DNA from: Flavihumibacter rivuli
Lineage (GTDB): Bacteria; Bacteroidota; Bacteroidia; Chitinophagales; Chitinophagaceae
NCBI RefSeq assembly: GCF_018595685.2
Contig: NZ_CP092334.1
Location: 524,001-588,000 of the forward strand
Direction of reading: 5' to 3'
DNA length: 64,000 nucleotides
The notes under the pieces are model-generated. The model saw nothing but the letters and a program-made list of their open reading frames with translations. It searched no databases and was not told where the DNA came from. The position numbers were made by a program, and so were the translations under genes. Shown here one piece after another: positions 9,685-18,131 of the stretch (its first letter is position 1; each line of letters starts with the position of its first letter).

Positions 9685-9746
9685 GATGTAATGCATGGGC
9701 TGAATGAAAAGGCGCAACAATGCCGAAGAAGGGAGGAGGAATCAGT

Positions 9747-10310
9747 ATGCATGAAATTGAACCATTTTACAATTGGCGCCACATTTATGTGAGTGAGGAA
9801 GATGAACGCAGTCCTTTCTACGGAAGGGTATATTCGGAATTTGAATTTTCACAAACCATTTACAATTACTATATCCATCCTCAATGGGATGAGTTTGGTT
9901 CGCGCACCCTTTACATGAAGGTGATCATGGCTGATTATGAGGAAGGGTATGCCGTGATAGAATTATTGGGCGAATGGAATGATGCCATCGAAAATGATAT
10001 CATGAACCTCAAGCGCGAAGTGGTGGACAAGTTCCAGCAGCAGGGAATCTACAAGTTCATCATCATCACGGAGAATGTACTGAACTTCCATTCAGGGGAT
10101 CGTGATTACTATGAGGAATGGTATGAAGAAATGACGGATGAGAATGGATGGGTGACCTTGCTGAACATGCCCGAACAGACCCAATATGATTTCAAGAGGG
10201 CCAAACTCAATCGTTATCTTGAACTCATGGACCTGGGCAATTGGCGCACTTACAAGCCCTATCATTTGTTTAAGAAAATTGATGACGAACTCATGAAACG
10301 CTTGTCCTGA
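9747..10310 (+). CDS. Conserved hypothetical protein of Bacteroidota
   Basis: I recognise the N-terminus MHEIEPFYNWRHIYVS as that of a conserved Bacteroidota family without assigned function. The protein has 187 residues from the ATG at 9747; a longer start at 9720 would add nine residues rich in Gly and Lys. The internal start is preferred because the extra codons are a purine-rich GGGAGGAGGAAT tract and the family begins at this point. The protein is acidic, aromatic-rich and probably cytosolic, with no signal peptide or membrane segment. It contains NVLNFHSGDRDYYEEWYEE, with His-Ser-Gly-Asp that could be an active or binding site. It lies just upstream of the aromatic amino acid leader, with no obvious link to it. 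Confidence 0.7.
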   Translation: MHEIEPFYNWRHIYVSEEDERSPFYGRVYSEFEFSQTIYNYYIHPQWDEFGSRTLYMKVIMADYEEGYAVIELLGEWNDAIENDIMNLKREVVDKFQQQGIYKFIIITENVLNFHSGDRDYYEEWYEEMTDENGWVTLLNMPEQTQYDFKRAKLNRYLELMDLGNWRTYKPYHLFKKIDDELMKRLS

Positions 10311-10344
10311 GCGGAAAAACGAACACTAGTTAGGAAAAAATCTT

Positions 10345-10374
10345 TTGTTCGGTAATTTTCATTTCCTATTTTTG
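10345..10374 (+). promoter_or_regulatory. Bacteroidota primary-sigma promoter of the aromatic operon
   Basis: TTG at 10345-10347 (within TTTTG), a 19-base spacer, then TATTTTTG at 10367-10374. This is a full match to the Bacteroidota form TTTG/TAnnTTTG. The predicted start of transcription falls at about 10378-10381, that is, at or next to the ATG of the leader peptide (10380). Confidence 0.75.
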
Positions 10375-10379
10375 GAAAG

Positions 10380-10475
10380 ATGACACAAACAAAGGCATAT
10401 CGTTGGTTTTATTTTTACTTCTACTTTTTTACAGGCAGGAGGCCGGCGATGCTTTGGTTGAGATCAACTAATTAA
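10380..10475 (+). CDS. Aromatic-rich leader peptide (pheL-like attenuator peptide)
   Basis: A 31-codon open frame runs from ATG at 10380 to TAA at 10473-10475. Residues 7-17 are YRWFYFYFYFF, and another Trp is at residue 26. In total there are 5 Phe, 4 Tyr and 2 Trp. It lies directly behind a strong promoter and just before the pheA terminator. Such a run is expected in a leader peptide whose translation speed reports the charging of aromatic tRNAs, as with pheL in enterobacteria. Being probably leaderless, it would be translated from the very 5' end of the transcript. The peptide itself is unlikely to have another role. Confidence 0.8.
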   Translation: MTQTKAYRWFYFYFYFFTGRRPAMLWLRSTN

Positions 10476-10509
10476 GATCAAATAACAATCAACATAAAGA
10501 GTCCCGGCC
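10441..10509 (+). promoter_or_regulatory. Candidate antiterminator pairing of the aromatic attenuator
   Basis: GGCCGG at 10441-10446, inside the leader frame just after the aromatic codons, can pair with CCGGCC at 10504-10509, which overlaps the 5' arm of the terminator. A ribosome stalled on the Phe/Tyr run (10398-10430) would leave 10441-10446 free. A ribosome reaching the stop codon at 10473 would pass over it and allow the terminator to form. The pairing is only 6 bp, though all G-C. Confidence 0.5.
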
Positions 10510-10532
10510 GAGAGGTGCGGGACTTTTGTTTT
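10500..10532 (+). terminator. Attenuator terminator abutting pheA
   Basis: The stem pairs 10500-10506 with 10518-10524 (7 bp, mostly G-C) around an 11-base loop. TTTTGTTTT runs to 10532, immediately before the pheA ATG at 10533. Its location between the leader peptide and the first structural gene fits transcription attenuation. Confidence 0.8.
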
Positions 10533-11363
10533 ATGGCAGCAAAAGTATCTATACAAGGTTATGAAGGCAGTTTCCACCAGGTGGCTGCAAGGCAGTTCTT
10601 CGGGAGTGATGTGGAAGTGATCCCCTGTGCTACTTTCCGGGAAGTGGTGAAGATCGCCGCTGACAAGCAATTGAGCACCGGAGGGGTGATGGCCATTGAG
10701 AATTCCATTGCCGGCAGTATCCTGCCCAACTATAATCTCCTCCAGAAGAGTGGTTTGCAGGTGGTAGGGGAGGTTTACCTCCAGATCGAACAGAACCTTC
10801 TGGTGAACCCCGGTGTGCGACTGGAAGATATCCGCGAAGTGCATTCCCATCCCATGGCGATCCTGCAGTGTATCGATTACCTGGAGCAATACAATTGGAA
10901 ACTGGTGGAAACAGAGGATACGGCCTTAAGCGCCAGGCATATCCACCAGCACCGCCATAAACATGCGGCAGCCATAGCCAGCAAACTGGCTGCTGACCTT
11001 TTCCAACTGGAAGTGATCGCGCCCAATATCCATACCATGAAGAACAATTATACGCGCTTCCTGGTACTGCAGCCTGCAGGAAGGGTAACTGATGCTGGTG
11101 ATGCCAACAAGGCTTCGGTCAATTTCCATACCGACCACTCCCGTGGCAGCCTTGCCAAAGTATTGACGAGGATTGCGGAAGGGGGCATTAATCTCAGTAA
11201 GCTGCAAAGCTTCCCTATTCCCGGCAGTGATTTCCAATACAGTTTCCATGCAGATATGGAGTTCGATTCACGCGAACAATTCGATACGGTGATCGAGGCG
11301 ATCCGTCCGTTGACGGCAGCCTTGCAGGTTTATGGTATTTATAAAAATGGTAAAGCATCATGA
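10533..11363 (+). CDS. pheA: Prephenate dehydratase
   Basis: This enzyme makes phenylpyruvate from prephenate, the committed step to phenylalanine. From the ATG at 10533 it has 276 residues. An ATG at 10515 would lie inside the attenuator stem-loop, so it is rejected. Dehydratase motifs include GYEGSFHQVAA (residues 8-18), MAIENSIAGSI (about 54-64) and the catalytic Thr in NYTRFLVL (about 171-178). A C-terminal ACT domain (about 195-276, SRGSLAKVLTRIAEGGINLS) should bind phenylalanine for feedback control; its usual ESRP element reads QSFP here. There is no chorismate mutase domain, which is instead fused to DAHP synthase downstream. The stop overlaps the next start by 4 bp, so translation is coupled. 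Confidence 0.95.
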   Translation: MAAKVSIQGYEGSFHQVAARQFFGSDVEVIPCATFREVVKIAADKQLSTGGVMAIENSIAGSILPNYNLLQKSGLQVVGEVYLQIEQNLLVNPGVRLEDIREVHSHPMAILQCIDYLEQYNWKLVETEDTALSARHIHQHRHKHAAAIASKLAADLFQLEVIAPNIHTMKNNYTRFLVLQPAGRVTDAGDANKASVNFHTDHSRGSLAKVLTRIAEGGINLSKLQSFPIPGSDFQYSFHADMEFDSREQFDTVIEAIRPLTAALQVYGIYKNGKAS

Positions 11364-12538
11364 TCAAGACGGCAAATAGACTGGAAGGAATTGGTGAATA
11401 TTATTTCTCCATGAAGTTGAGGGAGATCGATACCCTCAATAAGGAAGGCAAGGCCATTATCAACCTGGGCATTGGCAGTCCCGACCTGCCACCCCATCCT
11501 GATGTGATCAGGGTATTGCAGGAAGAGTCCGCCAAACCGAATGTGCATGCCTACCAGAGCTACAAGGGTTCGCCGGTGTTGCGCAAGGCCATGAGCGATT
11601 GGTATGCCACCTGGTATGGCGTAAGCCTCGATGCCGATACGGAAGTATTACCCTTGATCGGTTCCAAGGAAGGCATCATGCATATCTGCATGACCTACCT
11701 CGATGAAGGTGACCAGGTGCTGATCCCCAATCCCGGTTATCCCACCTATAGCAGTGCCGTGAAATTGGCCGGTGGTGTACCGGTGCCATATGAAATGAAG
11801 GAATCCCTCAATTGGGAGCCGGACCTGGAAGCATTGTCAAATACAGACCTTTCAAAGGTGAAGCTGATGTGGGTGAACTACCCGCATATGCCAACCGGCC
11901 AGGTGCCTTCCCAGTCCTTCTTTGAAGCATTGGTGGCCTTTGGCAGGAAGCACGCCATCCTGATATGCCATGATAACCCGTATAGCTTCATCCTGAATGA
12001 GAAGCCTGCAAGCCTGCTGGCCATCCCGGGTGCGAAGGAAGTGGTGTTGGAACTCAACTCACTCAGCAAGAGCCAGAACATGGCCGGTTGGCGGGTGGGC
12101 ATGCTGGCGGGAGCAAAGGATCGCATCGATGAAGTGCTGCGGTTCAAGAGCAATATGGACAGCGGGATGTTCCTTCCCCTGCAACTGGCGGCTGCAAAGG
12201 CGCTGAGCCTGGGAAAGGATTGGTACAACAGCGTTAATGCCATCTATGCCCGCAGGAGGGAATTGGTTTTCCGTTTGCTGGACATGCTGGATTGCCATTA
12301 CGACCGTAACCAGGTTGGCATGTTTGTTTGGGCAAAGATCCCGTCAACTTACGCAGATGGTTATGCGCTAAGTGATGCGGTGTTGTATAATGCTAATGTA
12401 TTCATCACGCCCGGTGGCATATTTGGTGATGCGGGCAAAGGATTTATCAGGGTGAGTTTGTGCAGCCCTGAAGAAAAATTGCAGCAGGCCATGGATCGGA
12501 TCGCCAAGGCCATTCGCCAACCTGCTGAACAAAACTGA
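11360..12538 (+). CDS. Class I/II aminotransferase (probable aromatic/aspartate aminotransferase)
   Basis: This PLP enzyme of 392 residues has fold type I. SLSKSQNMAGWRVGML at about residue 234 carries the Schiff-base Lys and the phosphate-binding Arg. NPGYPTYSSAVKLAGG near 122 and CHDNPYS near 205 match the substrate and cofactor pockets of LL-DAP/aspartate-type aminotransferases. In this operon the likely task is the last step to phenylalanine and tyrosine, transferring an amino group to phenylpyruvate and 4-hydroxyphenylpyruvate. The substrate is inferred from context; its motifs also resemble the DapL/AspC group. It starts by the ATGA overlap with pheA. Confidence 0.85.
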   Translation: MIKTANRLEGIGEYYFSMKLREIDTLNKEGKAIINLGIGSPDLPPHPDVIRVLQEESAKPNVHAYQSYKGSPVLRKAMSDWYATWYGVSLDADTEVLPLIGSKEGIMHICMTYLDEGDQVLIPNPGYPTYSSAVKLAGGVPVPYEMKESLNWEPDLEALSNTDLSKVKLMWVNYPHMPTGQVPSQSFFEALVAFGRKHAILICHDNPYSFILNEKPASLLAIPGAKEVVLELNSLSKSQNMAGWRVGMLAGAKDRIDEVLRFKSNMDSGMFLPLQLAAAKALSLGKDWYNSVNAIYARRRELVFRLLDMLDCHYDRNQVGMFVWAKIPSTYADGYALSDAVLYNANVFITPGGIFGDAGKGFIRVSLCSPEEKLQQAMDRIAKAIRQPAEQN

Positions 12539-12552
12539 ATGGTGACACAACA

Positions 12553-13401
12553 ATGGAAAGAAAGAAAATAGCAATAGTGGGAGTAGGCCTTATTGGCGGT
12601 TCGCTGGCCCTGCAGCTGAATGAAAAGGGACTGGCAGCTGGTATCATAGGCGTAGACAATAACCCCTTCCATGCTGAGAAGGCAAGGGAACTGGGATTGG
12701 TGGACGAGATGATGGACCTTGATGCGGCTATTGATAACTGTGAGGTGATCATCCTGGCCATTCCGGTTGATAAGATGGTGGAGCTGTTGCCTGGTGTTTT
12801 GGACCGGGTGGATCAGCAGATCGTATTCGATGCGGGTTCTACCAAGTCGCAGCTGATAAAGGCCATCAAGGGCCATCCCAAACGTGGACGTTTTGTAGCT
12901 ACCCATCCCATGTGGGGTACGGAGTATAGCGGCCCACAAGCCGCCGTTAAACAAGCATTTGAGAACAAGGCCGTGGTGATCTGCGATACCCAGGACAGCG
13001 ATAAGGATGCGGTGGATTGGGTGAAGCATGCTTATAGCAAGATCGGCATGCACCTCCTGGAAATGGATGCCATTGCGCATGACCTGCACGCGGCCTATGT
13101 GAGCCATATTTCACATATCACTTCCTTCGCTTTGGCTAATACAGTATTGGAGAAGGAGAAGGAAGATGATGCCATTTTCGAACTGGCGAGTGGTGGTTTT
13201 GAAAGCACGGTGCGCCTGGCAAAGAGTAACCCTGCCATGTGGGTGCCCATATTCAGGCAGAACCGGGAGAATGTACTGGATGTGCTGAACGAACACATCA
13301 GCCAGTTGAGGAAATTCAAGTCATGCCTGGAGAAAGAGAACTACGAGTACCTGGGTGAACTGATCGAGAACGCTAACAAGATCAAAAGGATTTTAAAATA
13401 A
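12553..13401 (+). CDS. tyrA: Prephenate dehydrogenase
   Basis: This 282-residue enzyme oxidatively decarboxylates prephenate to 4-hydroxyphenylpyruvate with NAD for tyrosine. The N-terminal Rossmann motif VGVGLIGGSLALQL (about 9-22) and an acidic residue at VDNNP (about 35) favour NAD. ATHPMWGTEYSGP (about 116) includes the catalytic-site His. The helical dimerisation region includes YVSHISHITSFALA (about 183). Lacking an ACT or mutase domain, it is a minimal monofunctional form. It sits 14 bp after the aminotransferase and 14 bp before the DAHP synthase. Confidence 0.93.
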   Translation: MERKKIAIVGVGLIGGSLALQLNEKGLAAGIIGVDNNPFHAEKARELGLVDEMMDLDAAIDNCEVIILAIPVDKMVELLPGVLDRVDQQIVFDAGSTKSQLIKAIKGHPKRGRFVATHPMWGTEYSGPQAAVKQAFENKAVVICDTQDSDKDAVDWVKHAYSKIGMHLLEMDAIAHDLHAAYVSHISHITSFALANTVLEKEKEDDAIFELASGGFESTVRLAKSNPAMWVPIFRQNRENVLDVLNEHISQLRKFKSCLEKENYEYLGELIENANKIKRILK

Positions 13402-13415
13402 ATAGCAACCATCAT

Positions 13416-14507
13416 ATGCAAGCAACCGAAACAAAAAACATGAAGCAGATCACGCAGGAAGCGTGGTCCAAGCGCCCCCTGATCATATCAGGACCCTGTA
13501 GCGCAGAAACAGAAGAGCAGGTACTGGCAACAGCACAAAGGCTGGCCAATACCGGTAAAGTGGATGTATTGAGGGCCGGTATCTGGAAGCCCCGTACGCG
13601 TCCCGGAAGTTTTGAAGGCATTGGCACCAAGGGATTGCCCTGGTTGCAGCAGGCCAGGAAGATCACCGGTCTTCCCGTAGCCGTTGAAGTAGCTACCGCC
13701 AAGCAGGTGGAAGATGCCCTCCATTTCGATGTGGACATCCTCTGGATCGGTGCCCGTACCACTGTTAACCCTTTCTCGGTGCAGGAAGTGGCCGATGCCC
13801 TACGTGGTGCAGATGTGCCTGTATTGATCAAGAACCCCATTAACCCCGACCTGGAACTCTGGATCGGAGCCGTTGAGCGTGTGGCCAAGGCTGGCATCCA
13901 GCAGATCGGTTTGATCCACCGTGGTTTCTCTTCTTACGGCAATACCGAATACCGCAATGCCCCCATGTGGCACCTCGCTATCGAAATGAAGCGTCGTAAC
14001 CCCGATATGCTGATGGTGAACGATCCTTCGCATATCTGTGGCCGCAGGGATATCCTCATGGATGTTGCACAGAAAGCCATTGACCTCGACTTCGATGGCC
14101 TGATGATCGAAAGCCATATCGATCCCGATAATGCCTGGAGCGATGCCAAGCAGCAGGTGACACCGGAGAAACTGGCAGAAATGCTGGGCAGCATCAGGTG
14201 GAGAAGGGAAGATGTGGATTCAGAAGCATACCACGCGGCATTGGAAAAACTGCGCCAGCAGATCAACCACCTCGATGATGAACTGATGCAGATCCTGGGC
14301 CAGCGGATGAAGATCGCAGAGCAGATCGGTAAATACAAGAAGGAGAACAATATCACTATCCTGCAGACCAACAGGTGGAACGAGATCCTGGACCGGGCAT
14401 TCAAGAAAGGTGAAAAACTTGGACTGAGCAATGAGTTCATCACCCGTTACTTCGATGCCGTTCACATGGAAAGTATCAACCACCAGAACAAGATCATGAA
14501 CTCCTGA
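13416..14507 (+). CDS. DAHP synthase / chorismate mutase fusion
   Basis: This 363-residue fusion performs both the entry step (PEP plus erythrose 4-phosphate to DAHP) and chorismate to prephenate. Residues about 15-270 form a class I-beta DAHP synthase: ISGPCSAETEEQ, RAGIWKPRTRPGSFEGIG, LIHRGFSSYG and NDPSHICGRRD (metal and PEP ligands). Residues about 275-350 are an AroQ-type mutase helix bundle (RQQINHLDDELMQILGQRM, then IGKYKKENNI). In Bacteroidota this order, synthase first and mutase second, is standard. The start at 13416 adds nine residues to a possible internal Met at 13443; either is acceptable. It is embedded in the aromatic operon. Confidence 0.93.
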   Translation: MQATETKNMKQITQEAWSKRPLIISGPCSAETEEQVLATAQRLANTGKVDVLRAGIWKPRTRPGSFEGIGTKGLPWLQQARKITGLPVAVEVATAKQVEDALHFDVDILWIGARTTVNPFSVQEVADALRGADVPVLIKNPINPDLELWIGAVERVAKAGIQQIGLIHRGFSSYGNTEYRNAPMWHLAIEMKRRNPDMLMVNDPSHICGRRDILMDVAQKAIDLDFDGLMIESHIDPDNAWSDAKQQVTPEKLAEMLGSIRWRREDVDSEAYHAALEKLRQQINHLDDELMQILGQRMKIAEQIGKYKKENNITILQTNRWNEILDRAFKKGEKLGLSNEFITRYFDAVHMESINHQNKIMNS

Positions 14508-14527
14508 TGAGGTCTTTTGCTGTTCAA

Positions 14528-14582
14528 GGCTTCCAGACGCTTAGTGCCACTTCGCGTCTTAGCGCCTTCGTGGCAAAAAACA
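14528..14582. repeat. Probable dispersed intergenic repeat (cttcgcgtcttagcgcc type)
   Basis: The 105-bp gap before aroB holds a low-complexity stretch with the segments cttagtgccacttcgcgtc and cttagcgccttcgtggc. Stretches of the type 'gcgtctttgcgcctttgcg' are familiar dispersed repeats in Bacteroidota genomes. A related piece, tcctttgcgtccttcacg, occurs near 55770. Only two copies can be seen here, so the assignment rests mostly on recollection. Confidence 0.35.
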
Positions 14583-14612
14583 AATAAGGATAGGAATAAC
14601 TCAGTCAAATCA

Positions 14613-15644
14613 ATGGAAAAGAAAAAGATCAGGATAGGCCAGTCAACAGTGGAATATTATTTCGGTGCCAGTCTTTCCAGATTGAAGGACGTAGCGGATA
14701 AGGCCCACAGTGTTATCCTCACCGATGAACACATCTACCAGCATTACGGCAATAAGCTGAAGGGCTGGAAGACCATTGTGTTGAAACCAGGAGAGGAATA
14801 CAAAGTGCAGCAGACAGCCGATGCCGTGATCGATGAACTGATAGCGTTAGAGGCCGACCGCAAAACCACGCTGATAGGCATGGGCGGCGGTGTGATCACC
14901 GACCTCGCCGGTTATATCGGGTCTGTATACATGCGCGGTATCCGCACCGGGTTCATCCCAACCAGCCTTCTGGCCATGGTGGATGCATCCATCGGTGGAA
15001 AGAATGGTATTGATGTCGGCGTGTACAAGAACATGGTGGGCATCATCCGCCAACCGGCTTTTTTATTCTTTGATACTTCCTTATTGGCAACCCTGCCTGA
15101 TATGGAATGGCGCAACGGCTTTGCTGAGATCATCAAGCATGGTTGTATAAAAGACGCCGCAATGTTTCGGGAGCTTGCAGCAAGGGACCTCGGGTATTAT
15201 CAGAAGAATAAGAAGGCTGTGGCAGAATTGGTGAAGCGCAATGCGCTGCTGAAGACCAAAGTTGTGCAGCAAGACGAGACCGAGCAGGGCGATCGCAAGC
15301 TGCTGAATTTCGGCCATACACTTGCACATGCCCTGGAGAACCAGTATGAACTCACCCATGGCCAGGCTGTTGCCATCGGTATAACCTATGCCGCGCACAT
15401 CTCAGCCTCCCTGCTTGGATTTAGGCAGGCAGAAAAGGTGGTAGAGTTGATCGATCGCTATGGGTTGCCTACCTATGCTCAGTTCGACAAGGAGAAAGTA
15501 CTTTCCGTATTGAAGCATGATAAGAAACGTGAGCGCGACCATCTGCACTACATCCTGTTGCAGCGGATCGGCAAGGGAGTTATCCATACCCTTCCCCTGA
15601 AGGAAATTGAACAAATTTTTGAACGAATCAATCAAGGTCTTTAA
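14613..15644 (+). CDS. aroB: 3-dehydroquinate synthase
   Basis: This NAD- and zinc-dependent enzyme makes 3-dehydroquinate from DAHP. It has 343 residues from the ATG at 14613; an in-frame start at 14517 would translate the intergenic repeat and is rejected. Motifs: GGGVITDLAGY (NAD contact), a catalytic Lys in KNMVG (about 132), PTSLLAMVDASIGGK, and the zinc ligand in FGHTLAHALE with a second His in THGQAVAIG. It is followed after only 6 bp by aroA. The 105-bp spacer before it is the first loose joint in the operon. Confidence 0.95.
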   Translation: MEKKKIRIGQSTVEYYFGASLSRLKDVADKAHSVILTDEHIYQHYGNKLKGWKTIVLKPGEEYKVQQTADAVIDELIALEADRKTTLIGMGGGVITDLAGYIGSVYMRGIRTGFIPTSLLAMVDASIGGKNGIDVGVYKNMVGIIRQPAFLFFDTSLLATLPDMEWRNGFAEIIKHGCIKDAAMFRELAARDLGYYQKNKKAVAELVKRNALLKTKVVQQDETEQGDRKLLNFGHTLAHALENQYELTHGQAVAIGITYAAHISASLLGFRQAEKVVELIDRYGLPTYAQFDKEKVLSVLKHDKKRERDHLHYILLQRIGKGVIHTLPLKEIEQIFERINQGL

Positions 15645-15650
15645 ACCAAT

Positions 15651-16928
15651 ATGATAGCTACTATTCAACCTTCCTCACTGAAGGGCGATATTTATGCACC
15701 TGCCTCCAAAAGCTCTATGCAGCGGGCATGTGCAGCCGCCCTTGTTGCGGGAGGTACCACCGTCATCCGTAACCCCGGTCATAGCAATGATGACAAGGCT
15801 GCCCTTGGGGTGATACAGGCCCTGGGTGCAGAAGTTCGTGCAGTTGAAGATACCCTGGAAGTAAAAAGTGCGGGTGTACATGCCCGTGATTCGCAGGTGC
15901 ATTGCGGGGAGAGTGGCCTTGGTATCCGGATGTTCACCCCTATCGTTGCGTTGAACAATACTCCGATCACCGTTACCGGTGAAGGCAGCCTGGTATCCAG
16001 GCCCATGGATTTTTTTGATACCGTACTCCCGCAATTACAAGTGGAGACCAGTACCAACCAGGGAAGATTACCACTGGGTATCAAGGGGCCATTGCAACCC
16101 GCTGATATCACCATCGACGGGTCACTCAGTTCCCAGTTCCTTACAGGCATGCTCATGGCCTATGCGGCAGCGGGTGCAAAGAATGTGTCCATCCATGTTA
16201 CCAACCTGAAGAGCAAGCCTTATGTGGACCTTACGCTGGCAGTAATGAAGGCTTTTGGCCTGAAAGTGCCGGAGAACAGGAACTATGAATCCTTCTATTT
16301 TGATGATCAGCCTGTCCGGTTGAATACCAATGTTCAACGGACCTATACCGTTGAAGGCGATTGGAGTGGCGCAGCCTTCTTATTGGTGGCAGGTGCCATT
16401 GCCGGTAACATTACCATCAAGGGGTTGGATGTTTTCTCCACCCAGGCGGATAAGGCAGTATTGCAGGCCCTGATGAGTTGTGGTGCAGGCATGAGCATAA
16501 CGCCGGAACATATCGAAATGCGTAAGCTTCCGCTCAAGGCCTTTCATTTCAATGCTACGGATTGCCCTGACCTCTTTCCGCCATTGGTTGCCCTGGCCGC
16601 CTGCTGCGAAGGAACCACGGTCATTGAAGGGGTTAATCGTTTGGCACACAAGGAAAGCAACCGGGCCCTGACCCTCCAGGAAGAGTTTGGCAAAATGGGT
16701 ATTGAGATCACTTTACAGGATGACCTGATGATCATCAAGGGTGGTACCGGCCTGAAAGCCGCCACCGTTCATTCCCATCACGACCACCGGATTGCAATGG
16801 CCTGCGCAGTCGCGGGTTTGTGTGCAGATGGCCCAACCCATATTGAATGCGCGGAAGCGATCAATAAATCCTATCCTGATTTCTACCGACATATAGGCTT
16901 GTTGGGCGCATCTGTCCTGATCAACTGA
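15651..16928 (+). CDS. aroA: 3-phosphoshikimate 1-carboxyvinyltransferase (EPSP synthase)
   Basis: This 425-residue enzyme joins shikimate 3-phosphate and PEP to form EPSP. Motifs: SKSSMQRACAAALVAGG (about 20-36, substrate Lys and Ser), NPGHSNDD, CGESGLGIRMFTP (about 87-99), LVSRPMDFF, GDWSGAAFLLVAG (about 240) and HDHRIAMACAVAGL near 380. The usual NAGTAMR loop of class I enzymes is replaced by SGLGIRM, a divergence typical of Bacteroidota EPSP synthases. This is relevant to PEP-site chemistry but does not suggest loss of function. Transcription is coupled to aroB. Confidence 0.93.
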   Translation: MIATIQPSSLKGDIYAPASKSSMQRACAAALVAGGTTVIRNPGHSNDDKAALGVIQALGAEVRAVEDTLEVKSAGVHARDSQVHCGESGLGIRMFTPIVALNNTPITVTGEGSLVSRPMDFFDTVLPQLQVETSTNQGRLPLGIKGPLQPADITIDGSLSSQFLTGMLMAYAAAGAKNVSIHVTNLKSKPYVDLTLAVMKAFGLKVPENRNYESFYFDDQPVRLNTNVQRTYTVEGDWSGAAFLLVAGAIAGNITIKGLDVFSTQADKAVLQALMSCGAGMSITPEHIEMRKLPLKAFHFNATDCPDLFPPLVALAACCEGTTVIEGVNRLAHKESNRALTLQEEFGKMGIEITLQDDLMIIKGGTGLKAATVHSHHDHRIAMACAVAGLCADGPTHIECAEAINKSYPDFYRHIGLLGASVLIN

Positions 16929-17135
16929 TAAGGGGAAGGGCAATTATCATTCGGCAAACAATATTGCGCAGGATGCCGTAAATAGGATATTTAATGGAAT
17001 AAGCAGTAATGCCTATCTTGTTCCGGTCAGCCTGCTGGTTGGGGAAGGATAAGATAGCAGGAAGGAGTAGGCACAATTGCATTTACTTTGGCAGCATATG
17101 GGATCCGATGGGGTCCCTGTAAACAGATATCTTGT

Positions 17136-18131
17136 ATGAATTCATTTGGCAAATTATTTCGGGTAAGCATTGTAGGGGAATCGCATGGCCCTGGTGTGGG
17201 GGTGATCCTGGATGGGGTGCCGGCTGGACTTCCCCTGGCGCTGGAAGATTTCCTGGTGGATATAGAACGCCGTAAGGGAGGAGTGCAAAAAGGCACGACA
17301 CCCAGGAAGGAAGATGACCTACCGATATTCCAGACCGGATTGTTCAATGGGCATGCTACAGGTGCGCCCATGACCATCCTGTTTGAGAACAAGAATACCC
17401 GCTCCGGCGATTATGAAAAGCAAAGGGCCGTTCCCCGTCCGGGACATGCCGATATGGTTGCCCACCAGAAATTTGGGGGTTTTGAGGATTTCAGGGGCGG
17501 AGGGCATTTCAGCGGCAGGCTGACTGTTGGCTTGGTTGCTGCAGGGGTGATCGCCAAAAAGTTGCTGGGGGCCATTAAGGTGGAAGCCAGGATCCTGGAA
17601 ATTGGCGGGGAGCCGGATATTGAAGCCGGCTTGCAAAAAGCCATTGATGCGAAGGACTCCATTGGAGGAATCGTAGAATGCAGGGTGAATGGGTTGTCTG
17701 CAGGTTTGGGTGAACCTTTCTTTGATTCCGTGGAATCGCTGATCAGCCATGCGGTATTTGCCATTCCTGCCGTGAGGGGAATTGAGTTCGGTACCGGTTT
17801 TGCTGCAGCGAGGATGTTTGGGGTAGAGCATAATGACCCAATTGAGGACATGCAGGGACATACCCGGAGCAATCATGCCGGTGGAGTGGTAGGAGGTATC
17901 ACCAATGGTAACGAACTGGTGTTCCGGATCGCCATTAAACCGACCTCCTCAACGCCCAGGGACCAGCTGACCCTGAACTGGGAGACCGGCGAACAGGAAA
18001 CCTTTTCTGTCAAGGGAAGACATGACCTCTGTATTGCCCTTCGAGTGCCTGTGGTGTTGGAGGCTGTTACGGCCATGGTGCTGGCCGACCTGATGATGCA
18101 GGTGAATGCCATTCCAAGGGTATGGAAATAA
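17136..18131 (+). CDS. aroC: Chorismate synthase
   Basis: This protein of 331 residues converts EPSP to chorismate using reduced FMN. The start is taken at 17136 (MNSFGKLFRVSIVGESHGPG), because the family begins there; an upstream ATG at 17088 adds 16 unrelated residues. Motifs: GESHGPGVGVILDGVPAG, IERRKGG, PRPGHADMVAHQKFGGF, GGGHFSGRLT and EHNDPIEDMQGHTRSNHAGG. It is about 25-30 residues shorter than many homologs but has all signatures. A 207-bp gap separates it from aroA, with no clear promoter or terminator, so it may be read through or have its own start. Confidence 0.93.
   Translation: MNSFGKLFRVSIVGESHGPGVGVILDGVPAGLPLALEDFLVDIERRKGGVQKGTTPRKEDDLPIFQTGLFNGHATGAPMTILFENKNTRSGDYEKQRAVPRPGHADMVAHQKFGGFEDFRGGGHFSGRLTVGLVAAGVIAKKLLGAIKVEARILEIGGEPDIEAGLQKAIDAKDSIGGIVECRVNGLSAGLGEPFFDSVESLISHAVFAIPAVRGIEFGTGFAAARMFGVEHNDPIEDMQGHTRSNHAGGVVGGITNGNELVFRIAIKPTSSTPRDQLTLNWETGEQETFSVKGRHDLCIALRVPVVLEAVTAMVLADLMMQVNAIPRVWK

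Follow-up and report, generated by a model that had tools for sequence, protein, structure and literature searches.

In the 64,000-nt stretch of Flavihumibacter rivuli DNA analyzed here (the window), the aromatic operon is very likely governed by a ribosome-mediated transcription attenuator: transcription would begin at the AUG of a short leader ORF or one base before it, and stalling of the ribosome on the Phe and Tyr codons of that ORF would lead to readthrough into pheA. The leader ORF very probably serves as a supply gauge for aromatic amino acids by way of the stalled ribosome. In our judgment, this mechanism is backed about as strongly as sequence alone permits.

Results

An aromatic-rich leader ORF precedes pheA and the aromatic gene run

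The pheA gene (10533..11363, + strand) encodes prephenate dehydratase (PF00800, 189.5 bits) and is the first gene of the proposed controlled operon. Downstream of it on the same strand lie a class I/II aminotransferase gene (11360-12538), a prephenate dehydrogenase gene (12553-13401), a DAHP synthase/chorismate mutase gene (13416-14507), aroB (14517-15644), aroA (15651-16928) and aroC (17088-18131), the last marking the end of the aromatic gene run, so that the run behind pheA spans 11360..18131. Judging from their spacing and common strand, all seven genes are probably carried on one transcript. Relatives of the aminotransferase and the prephenate dehydrogenase were found 3' of pheA in all 67 full-length named loci. 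The promoter, a 31-codon ORF, and a G-C hairpin with a U-tract all fit between 10310, where the preceding ORF ends, and pheA at 10533. That preceding ORF (9720-10310, 196 aa), located 5' of the promoter, gave no Pfam or NCBIfam match at an E-value of 0.001.

The leader ORF (10380..10475, + strand), read from the sequence together with its ORF translation, is the 31-codon aromatic-rich frame named in the original prediction and encodes MTQTKAYRWFYFYFYFFTGRRPAMLWLRSTN. Its aromatic codons are codon 7 and codons 9-17 (10398-10430), and codon 8 encodes Arg.

We compared this region in 110 pheA loci, 30 from this genome and its relatives and 80 named loci. The two sets overlap, L029 and L030 come from other families, and the nearest named loci include several from Flavihumibacter (Chitinophagaceae). 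Window included, 109 of the 110 loci have, upstream of pheA, an ATG-initiated ORF in which a stretch of 10 residues holds 7 or more aromatic ones. The sole locus without an aromatic leader, L088, has only 69 nt of upstream sequence and was left out of the leader counts; the other 109 loci gave 97 distinct upstream sequences. In 96 of these 97 leaders, no other in-frame ATG, GTG or TTG comes before the aromatic run.

Over 92 distinct leader peptides, the residues sum to 535 Phe, 360 Tyr and 12 Trp. Phe and Tyr are both present in every one of the 92 peptides, and Trp in only 11. A joint signal from Phe, Tyr and Trp, as first suggested for this leader, was therefore rejected, because Trp is scarce in the peptides and a separate leader containing WWW stands before trpE in the same genome. 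In family f72, one Trp besides Phe and Tyr is found in seven of ten pheA leaders (L130, L135, L146, L148, L151, L155 and L161), so Trp may have a greater weight in the leaders of that family.

The predicted RNA 5' end lies at or next to the leader AUG

In Flavobacterium johnsoniae, probable promoters start transcription 4 or 5 nt after a TAnnTTTG -7 element (PMC6847099), and in Flavobacterium psychrophilum TAnnTTTG occupies -12 to -5 (PMC9723704). Reading of the window sequence revealed a Bacteroidota-type promoter at 10343..10374 (+ strand), as had been claimed, with a -33-like TTTTG (10343-10347), 19 nt, and the -7 box TATTTTTG (10367-10374). The sequence GAAAG separates this box from the leader ATG at 10380. 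Because the gap from box to ATG is 5 nt, transcription is predicted to start at 10379 or 10380. This placement agrees with the earlier prediction of a start at or next to the leader ATG, and 86 of the 97 distinct leaders look alike in this respect: their -7 box ends 4-10 nt 5' of the ATG. The box ends 2-3 nt from the ATG in none, which is the limit expected if the start falls 4-5 nt after the box. With start distances taken from two other genera, the 5' UTR of these 86 leaders is predicted to be about 0-6 nt long. The other 11 leaders have no scored box within 10 nt of the ATG.

A perfect (6/6) -7 box combined with at least 2/3 of the -33 match was found 4-10 nt before the ATG in 71 of the 97 leaders, compared with 1.1 expected from dinucleotide shuffles. 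Within 10300-10540 of the window, TATTTTTG is the sole 6/6 box; those at 10398 and 10422 score 5/6 and are poorly matched at -33. With the sole perfect box at 10367, a transcription start downstream of 10430 is unlikely. For comparison, we scored 379 other ORFs of 250 aa or longer from the 80 named loci. Of these, 21 are preceded by a perfect box plus a -33 match, one within 10 nt and 17 at 15-24 nt; a single distance bin holds 14 of the 21, which may represent the same orthologous gene. The window's own ORFs of at least 250 aa had such a combination in 5 of 34 cases, one of them within 10 nt.

Mutually exclusive RNA structures between the leader start and pheA

The transcribed strand (+) of the leader region can be divided into four segments. 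Segment 1 (10388..10407) would pair with segment 2 if no ribosome were present (protector, 1:2). Segment 2, the antiterminator 5' arm GGCCGGCGATGCTTTGGTTGA (10441..10461), lies within the leader ORF right after the aromatic run. The antiterminator 3' arm TCAACATAAAGAGTCCCGGCC (10489..10509), which consists of segment 3 with an upstream extension, is shared with the 5' arm of the intrinsic terminator, and this terminator (segments 3:4) together with its U-tract TTTTGTTTT covers 10497..10532 and ends at the pheA ATG.

The terminator hairpin (10497-10527) has a folding energy of -19.3 kcal/mol (z -3.79), and 1 of 200 shuffles was as stable. Its U-tract reaches the base before the pheA ATG (10533). 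That the terminator abuts the pheA ATG, as originally noted, is true of the window but not a general rule, because the script-called terminators of the 97 loci lie 0 to 223 nt away from the gene. The script called a hairpin followed by a U-run in each of the 97 distinct loci, at a distance of 8-43 nt from the leader stop codon. It placed those of L038 and L097 in the wrong register, and in L097 the U-run behind the G-C hairpin is poor. Both the frame and the terminator, whose conservation in related Chitinophagaceae had been proposed as a check, are thus present nearly throughout. The stretch GTCCCGGC..GCCGGGAC is nearly fixed across the 97 terminators. The upper stem of the window terminator (GCC GAGA GGU, with a single bulged base) is longer and imperfect, whereas in the genus-mates L002-L014 GGC..GCC closes a simple loop, so the window genome differs slightly from its closest relatives at this point.

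GGCCGG at 10441-10446 is complementary to CCGGCC at 10504-10509. The complementarity with the terminator arm that had been pointed out is therefore real, but the helix is far longer than 6 bp. The region 10441-10509 folds as one long hairpin composed of GGCCGG/CCGGCC, GAU/GUC, CUUUG/UAAAG and GUUGA/UCAAC, with an energy of -26.1 kcal/mol (z -4.5; 0 of 200 shuffles as stable), compared with -19.3 kcal/mol for the terminator. Over the 97 loci, the 2:3 duplex has a median energy of -18.0 kcal/mol versus -9.4 kcal/mol when segment 2 is shuffled, and in 84 loci no more than 5 of 100 shuffles did as well. In the window's genus the base of the 2:3 helix is broken by a bulge, and the shuffles that matched it numbered 6 of 100 for the window and 18 of 100 for L014.

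The protector fold (10380-10460) has an energy of -20.6 kcal/mol (z -3.05). The 1:2 duplex over the 97 loci has a median of -18.9 versus -12.4 for shuffled sequences, and a complementary run of at least 6 was found in 60 of 63 alignment rows, a raw count that carries no shuffle comparison. Support for 1:2 is weaker than that for 2:3, because only 61 of the 97 loci reach the level of 5 or fewer of 100 shuffles.

The footprint of the E. coli ribosome extends up to 12 nt beyond the first base of the A-site codon. For the stalled state, with the last aromatic codon in the A site, we took the RNA to be free from the position 13 nt downstream of that codon's first base and folded it up to segment 3. 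The fold obtained was the antiterminator in 94 of the 97 distinct loci; the standard antiterminator was not found in L024 and L029, and L086 missed the counting rule though the hairpin was drawn. A ribosome at the last aromatic codon would leave the window RNA free from 10441, which is the first base of GGCCGG. The mutually exclusive pairings and the conserved aromatic run and terminator together suggest that this Bacteroidota lineage does have an equivalent of the pheL-type attenuator, as was originally predicted.

Covariation supports both the antiterminator and the terminator

For the alignment set, L024, L029 and L030 were dropped and the remaining 94 sequences were reduced by similarity to 64 rows. 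Anchoring on CGG and CCG was possible in 63 of 64 (L025 lacks the CGG) and gave 63 non-redundant rows; in L052, L087, L091 and L108 the anchor had fallen on an earlier CGG. The 2:3 pair at -2/+4 is GC in 37 rows, AT in 17 and GT in 2; it is thus paired in 56 of 63 rows, compared with a mean of 45.7 and a maximum of 51 in 1000 shuffles. The pair at -1/+3 (CG 56, GC 3, TG 1) is paired in 60 rows versus a shuffle mean of 54.6 and maximum of 59. The remaining 2:3 pairs vary little or do not clearly beat shuffles. When the arm was slid by 1 to 3 nt, the number of paired cells fell from 440 to at most 293 of 504. An apical antiterminator pair (GC 25, AT 12 and one GT) is paired in 38 of 44 rows versus a mean of 30.2, and 0 of 2000 shuffles did as well, while four terminator (3:4) pairs were better than all 2000 shuffles. 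RNAalifold returned no consensus pairs on the 64-row MAFFT alignment A2, which we attribute to rows being out of register by 1-2 nt.

The RNA of segment 2 is read in another frame by 17 of 94 leaders. Because of these frame differences, we consider that selection keeps the base pairing rather than the C-terminus of the peptide.

The leader is widespread, but not universal, in the class

A pheA match was obtained in 90 of 296 genomes drawn from the class. From this search and the earlier search of this genome and its relatives, we assembled 86 class-wide upstream regions, without six weak or contig-edge pheA matches (G051, G056, G080, G268, G305 and G338). A leader score of at least 7 was reached in 50 of the 86 regions, compared with 0 of 86 reverse-strand controls, and these 50 leaders span 14 families besides the window's own. 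No aromatic leader was found upstream of pheA in family f32 (0/8) or in families f3, f41 and f81 (0/2 each); the aromatic leader is not universal in the class. Among the 62 regions with a score of at least 5, the script called a terminator in 49, versus 1 of 62 sequence-reversed controls, and in 37 of these 49 the pairing of segment 2 to the terminator arm was matched by 5 or fewer of 100 shuffles. Inspection by eye of the 13 rows in which the script called no terminator showed a G-C hairpin followed by U's in 12; L181 does not show one.

We also measured the distance from box to ATG in 60 class-wide leaders that start with ATG. It is 10 nt or less in 13 and longer in 42, and 5 have no scored promoter. 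Short gaps (10 nt or less) were found in families f22 (4/4) and f1 (2/2), longer gaps in f58 (12/12, 15-28 nt), f52 (5/5), f75 (3/3) and f72 (9/10, >10 nt), and mixed gaps in f18, f35, f36 and f55. The 20 nt before the ATG contain 24% A in near-leaderless leaders compared with 46% in the leadered families. Because several other families carry longer, A-rich UTRs, the near-leaderless form appears to be lineage-specific.

Mapped or predicted transcripts elsewhere in the phylum mostly have longer leaders. Leaders longer than 10 nt precede 87% of predicted transcripts in F. johnsoniae (PMC6847099), leaderless mRNAs make up 5.5% of those examined in F. psychrophilum (PMC9723704), and about 3.7% of 5' UTRs are shorter than 10 nt in Bacteroides thetaiotaomicron (PMC7366714).

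Leaders for other amino acids in the same genome

A Trp leader, MNKEMINKHWWWHTNSYGVL, precedes trpE (L198:1264-1326), with a CATATTTG box 7 nt 5' of its ATG and a terminator-like hairpin after it; the 7 nt is a direct reading, the multi-locus Trp scan having scored an internal ATG for the window genome. The Trp leader is found in 29 of the 30 relatives' loci, with a box 4-10 nt before the ATG in 24 of the 29, and WWWHTNS recurs in many of the 30 loci. A His leader, MKQNTQKHHHHHYLPAR, precedes hisG (L197:1212-1265) and has a -7-like box (5/6) 8 nt before its ATG. The 5' arm of its terminator, GCTTACCGG, is complementary to CCGGTAAGC at the end of the leader. This leader is found in 25 of the 30 relatives' loci (L210 being doubtful), 19 of the 25 with a box 4-10 nt before the ATG. 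Both the His and the Trp leaders are built like the pheA leader and are predicted to be near-leaderless. An Ile/Val/Leu-rich ORF, MQARKNHIAILLNAIIIVVVVIIPALQGGGISL (L204:41-142), lies about 1.2 kb 5' of ilvD with other sequence between, and is followed by a strong terminator-like hairpin and a T-run. Its -7-like box TATATTCG is 17 nt from the ATG, so this leader does not look leaderless.

Discussion

A model for the attenuator

We propose the following mechanism. Transcription would begin at the leader AUG or one base earlier, and the ribosome would therefore load on a bare 5' end. When charged tRNA-Phe or tRNA-Tyr is short, the ribosome would stall within codons 7-17 and cover segment 1, leaving segment 2 free from about 10441. 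Segment 2 could then pair with segment 3 (10489-10509) into the long antiterminator, so that the terminator would be blocked and pheA and the genes behind it transcribed. When the tRNAs are charged, the ribosome would reach the stop codon at 10473 and cover segment 2; the terminator (10497-10527) would form and transcription would stop before pheA. If the leader is not translated, the 1:2 pairing would form, leading again to termination. Classic attenuation of this kind needs close coupling of transcription and translation.

A broader interpretation, to which we give about an even chance, is that attenuation is old and general in amino acid operons of the Bacteroidia, that the Phe/Tyr, His and Trp leader ORFs of Chitinophagaceae moved to the RNA 5' end whereas several other families have retained an A-rich 5' UTR before their homologous Phe/Tyr leaders, and that leaderless initiation was selected as a means of early ribosome loading without a Shine-Dalgarno sequence. 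If selected leaderless loading is correct, it implies tight transcription-translation coupling in Chitinophagaceae.

Alternative explanations

The attenuator could be the same and yet be transcribed from a promoter farther upstream, with an ordinary 5' UTR and the TAnnTTTG box near the ATG unused. Leadered forms do exist elsewhere (f58, f72), the box is weaker (TATTTTTA) in many members of the window's genus, and 11 of the 97 leaders have no scored box close to the ATG. An unused box, however, would hardly keep to 4-10 nt before the ATG in 86 of the 97 leaders and never to 2-3 nt, in accordance with the limit set by a start 4-5 nt after the box, when shuffling places a perfect box there in 1.1 of 97; moreover, the A-rich tract typical of the leadered families is missing from the 20 nt 5' of the ATG. 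We regard an upstream promoter as unlikely.

The other explanations concern the switch itself, and each is less probable. Since the window hairpin and U-tract adjoin the pheA ATG, the hairpin might control translation of pheA by burying its start region instead of ending transcription. We rejected this very improbable reading because the distance from hairpin to pheA varies from 0 to 223 nt among the 97 loci, whereas the G-C stem and U-run hardly vary. Slightly less probable still is a leader peptide that works as a TnaC-like nascent-chain arrest sensor with the C-terminal RPGMLLL as its arrest motif. The C-terminal residues are indeed similar in many loci, but they coincide with the pairing segment, and 17 of 94 loci read the same RNA in another frame to give, for example, SRVVFAK or SRECFC; because the pairing segment is kept while the frame shifts, nascent-chain arrest was rejected. 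Finally, AT-rich DNA commonly holds short ORFs, and the leader might be a chance ORF above a constitutive terminator. Conservation across families, the reverse-strand control (0/86) and the covariation contradict this, and we give it almost no weight.

Significance

Leader-peptide attenuation is a textbook mechanism of Proteobacteria. The device described here appears to be classic attenuation, and what appears to be new is its breadth in the class Bacteroidia and a lineage-specific near-leaderless form common to several operons. In the sources consulted, attenuation in Bacteroidota is the subject of short remarks only (PMC9723704, PMC7366714), and mRNAs of the phylum are described as having no Shine-Dalgarno sequences (PMC6847099). 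If our model is correct, many members of a large phylum regulate amino acid operons by attenuation, and ribosome-polymerase coupling is required in Bacteroidota. Homologous leaderless and leadered attenuators in related families would provide a natural experiment on ribosome loading, and the leader peptides are now open to annotation.

Comparison with known systems

The enterobacterial pheA attenuator (pheL) has an aromatic-rich leader ORF and a four-segment terminator/antiterminator switch, and controls pheA; the element described here is alike in all three respects. It differs in that the run mixes Phe and Tyr, in that almost no 5' UTR is predicted, and in that the genes behind the leader form a longer run, common pathway included. 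Rfam RF01859 (Phe_leader) matched the leader region with 18.5 bits (E 0.72) compared with a gathering score of 55, so the element is not a member of that family; of the weak Rfam matches there, Phe_leader had the lowest E-value, with a bit score level with that of an unrelated Enterococcus sRNA. Nothing in the whole window reached any Rfam gathering score. Accordingly, no T-box or metabolite riboswitch was found at gathering level in the window, and none was among the 12 weak matches at the leader.

Within Bacteroidota, the work on F. psychrophilum comes closest. It reports strong indications of leader-peptide attenuation in front of amino acid operons, as well as structured 5' elements ahead of pheA, hisG and others that are conserved in other Flavobacteriaceae and have no Rfam hits (PMC9723704). 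These brief remarks give no leader sequence, segments or covariation and do not mention leaderless leader ORFs. In B. thetaiotaomicron, short ORFs reminiscent of leader peptides have been noted (PMC7366714). A 2010 survey stated that, before its own additions from Firmicutes, leader-peptide systems were known only in Proteobacteria and Actinobacteria (PMC2965389). We found no description of leaderless attenuators in Bacteroidota in the literature searched, which was mostly non-subscription papers.

The trp attenuators of Actinobacteria likewise combine a leader peptide (2-3 Trp codons) with alternative hairpins, but they concern a different amino acid and phylum, and the word "leaderless" does not occur in the main text of that paper (PMC1262725). 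A leaderless attenuator ORF is already known, because the trpL RNA of Sinorhizobium meliloti (rnTrpL attenuator) starts with the leader ATG (PMC7298713). S. meliloti is an Alphaproteobacterium and its leader responds to Trp only, whereas the leaders described here differ in phylum, amino acids and sequence, and belong to a phylum in which the mapped mRNAs are mostly leadered.
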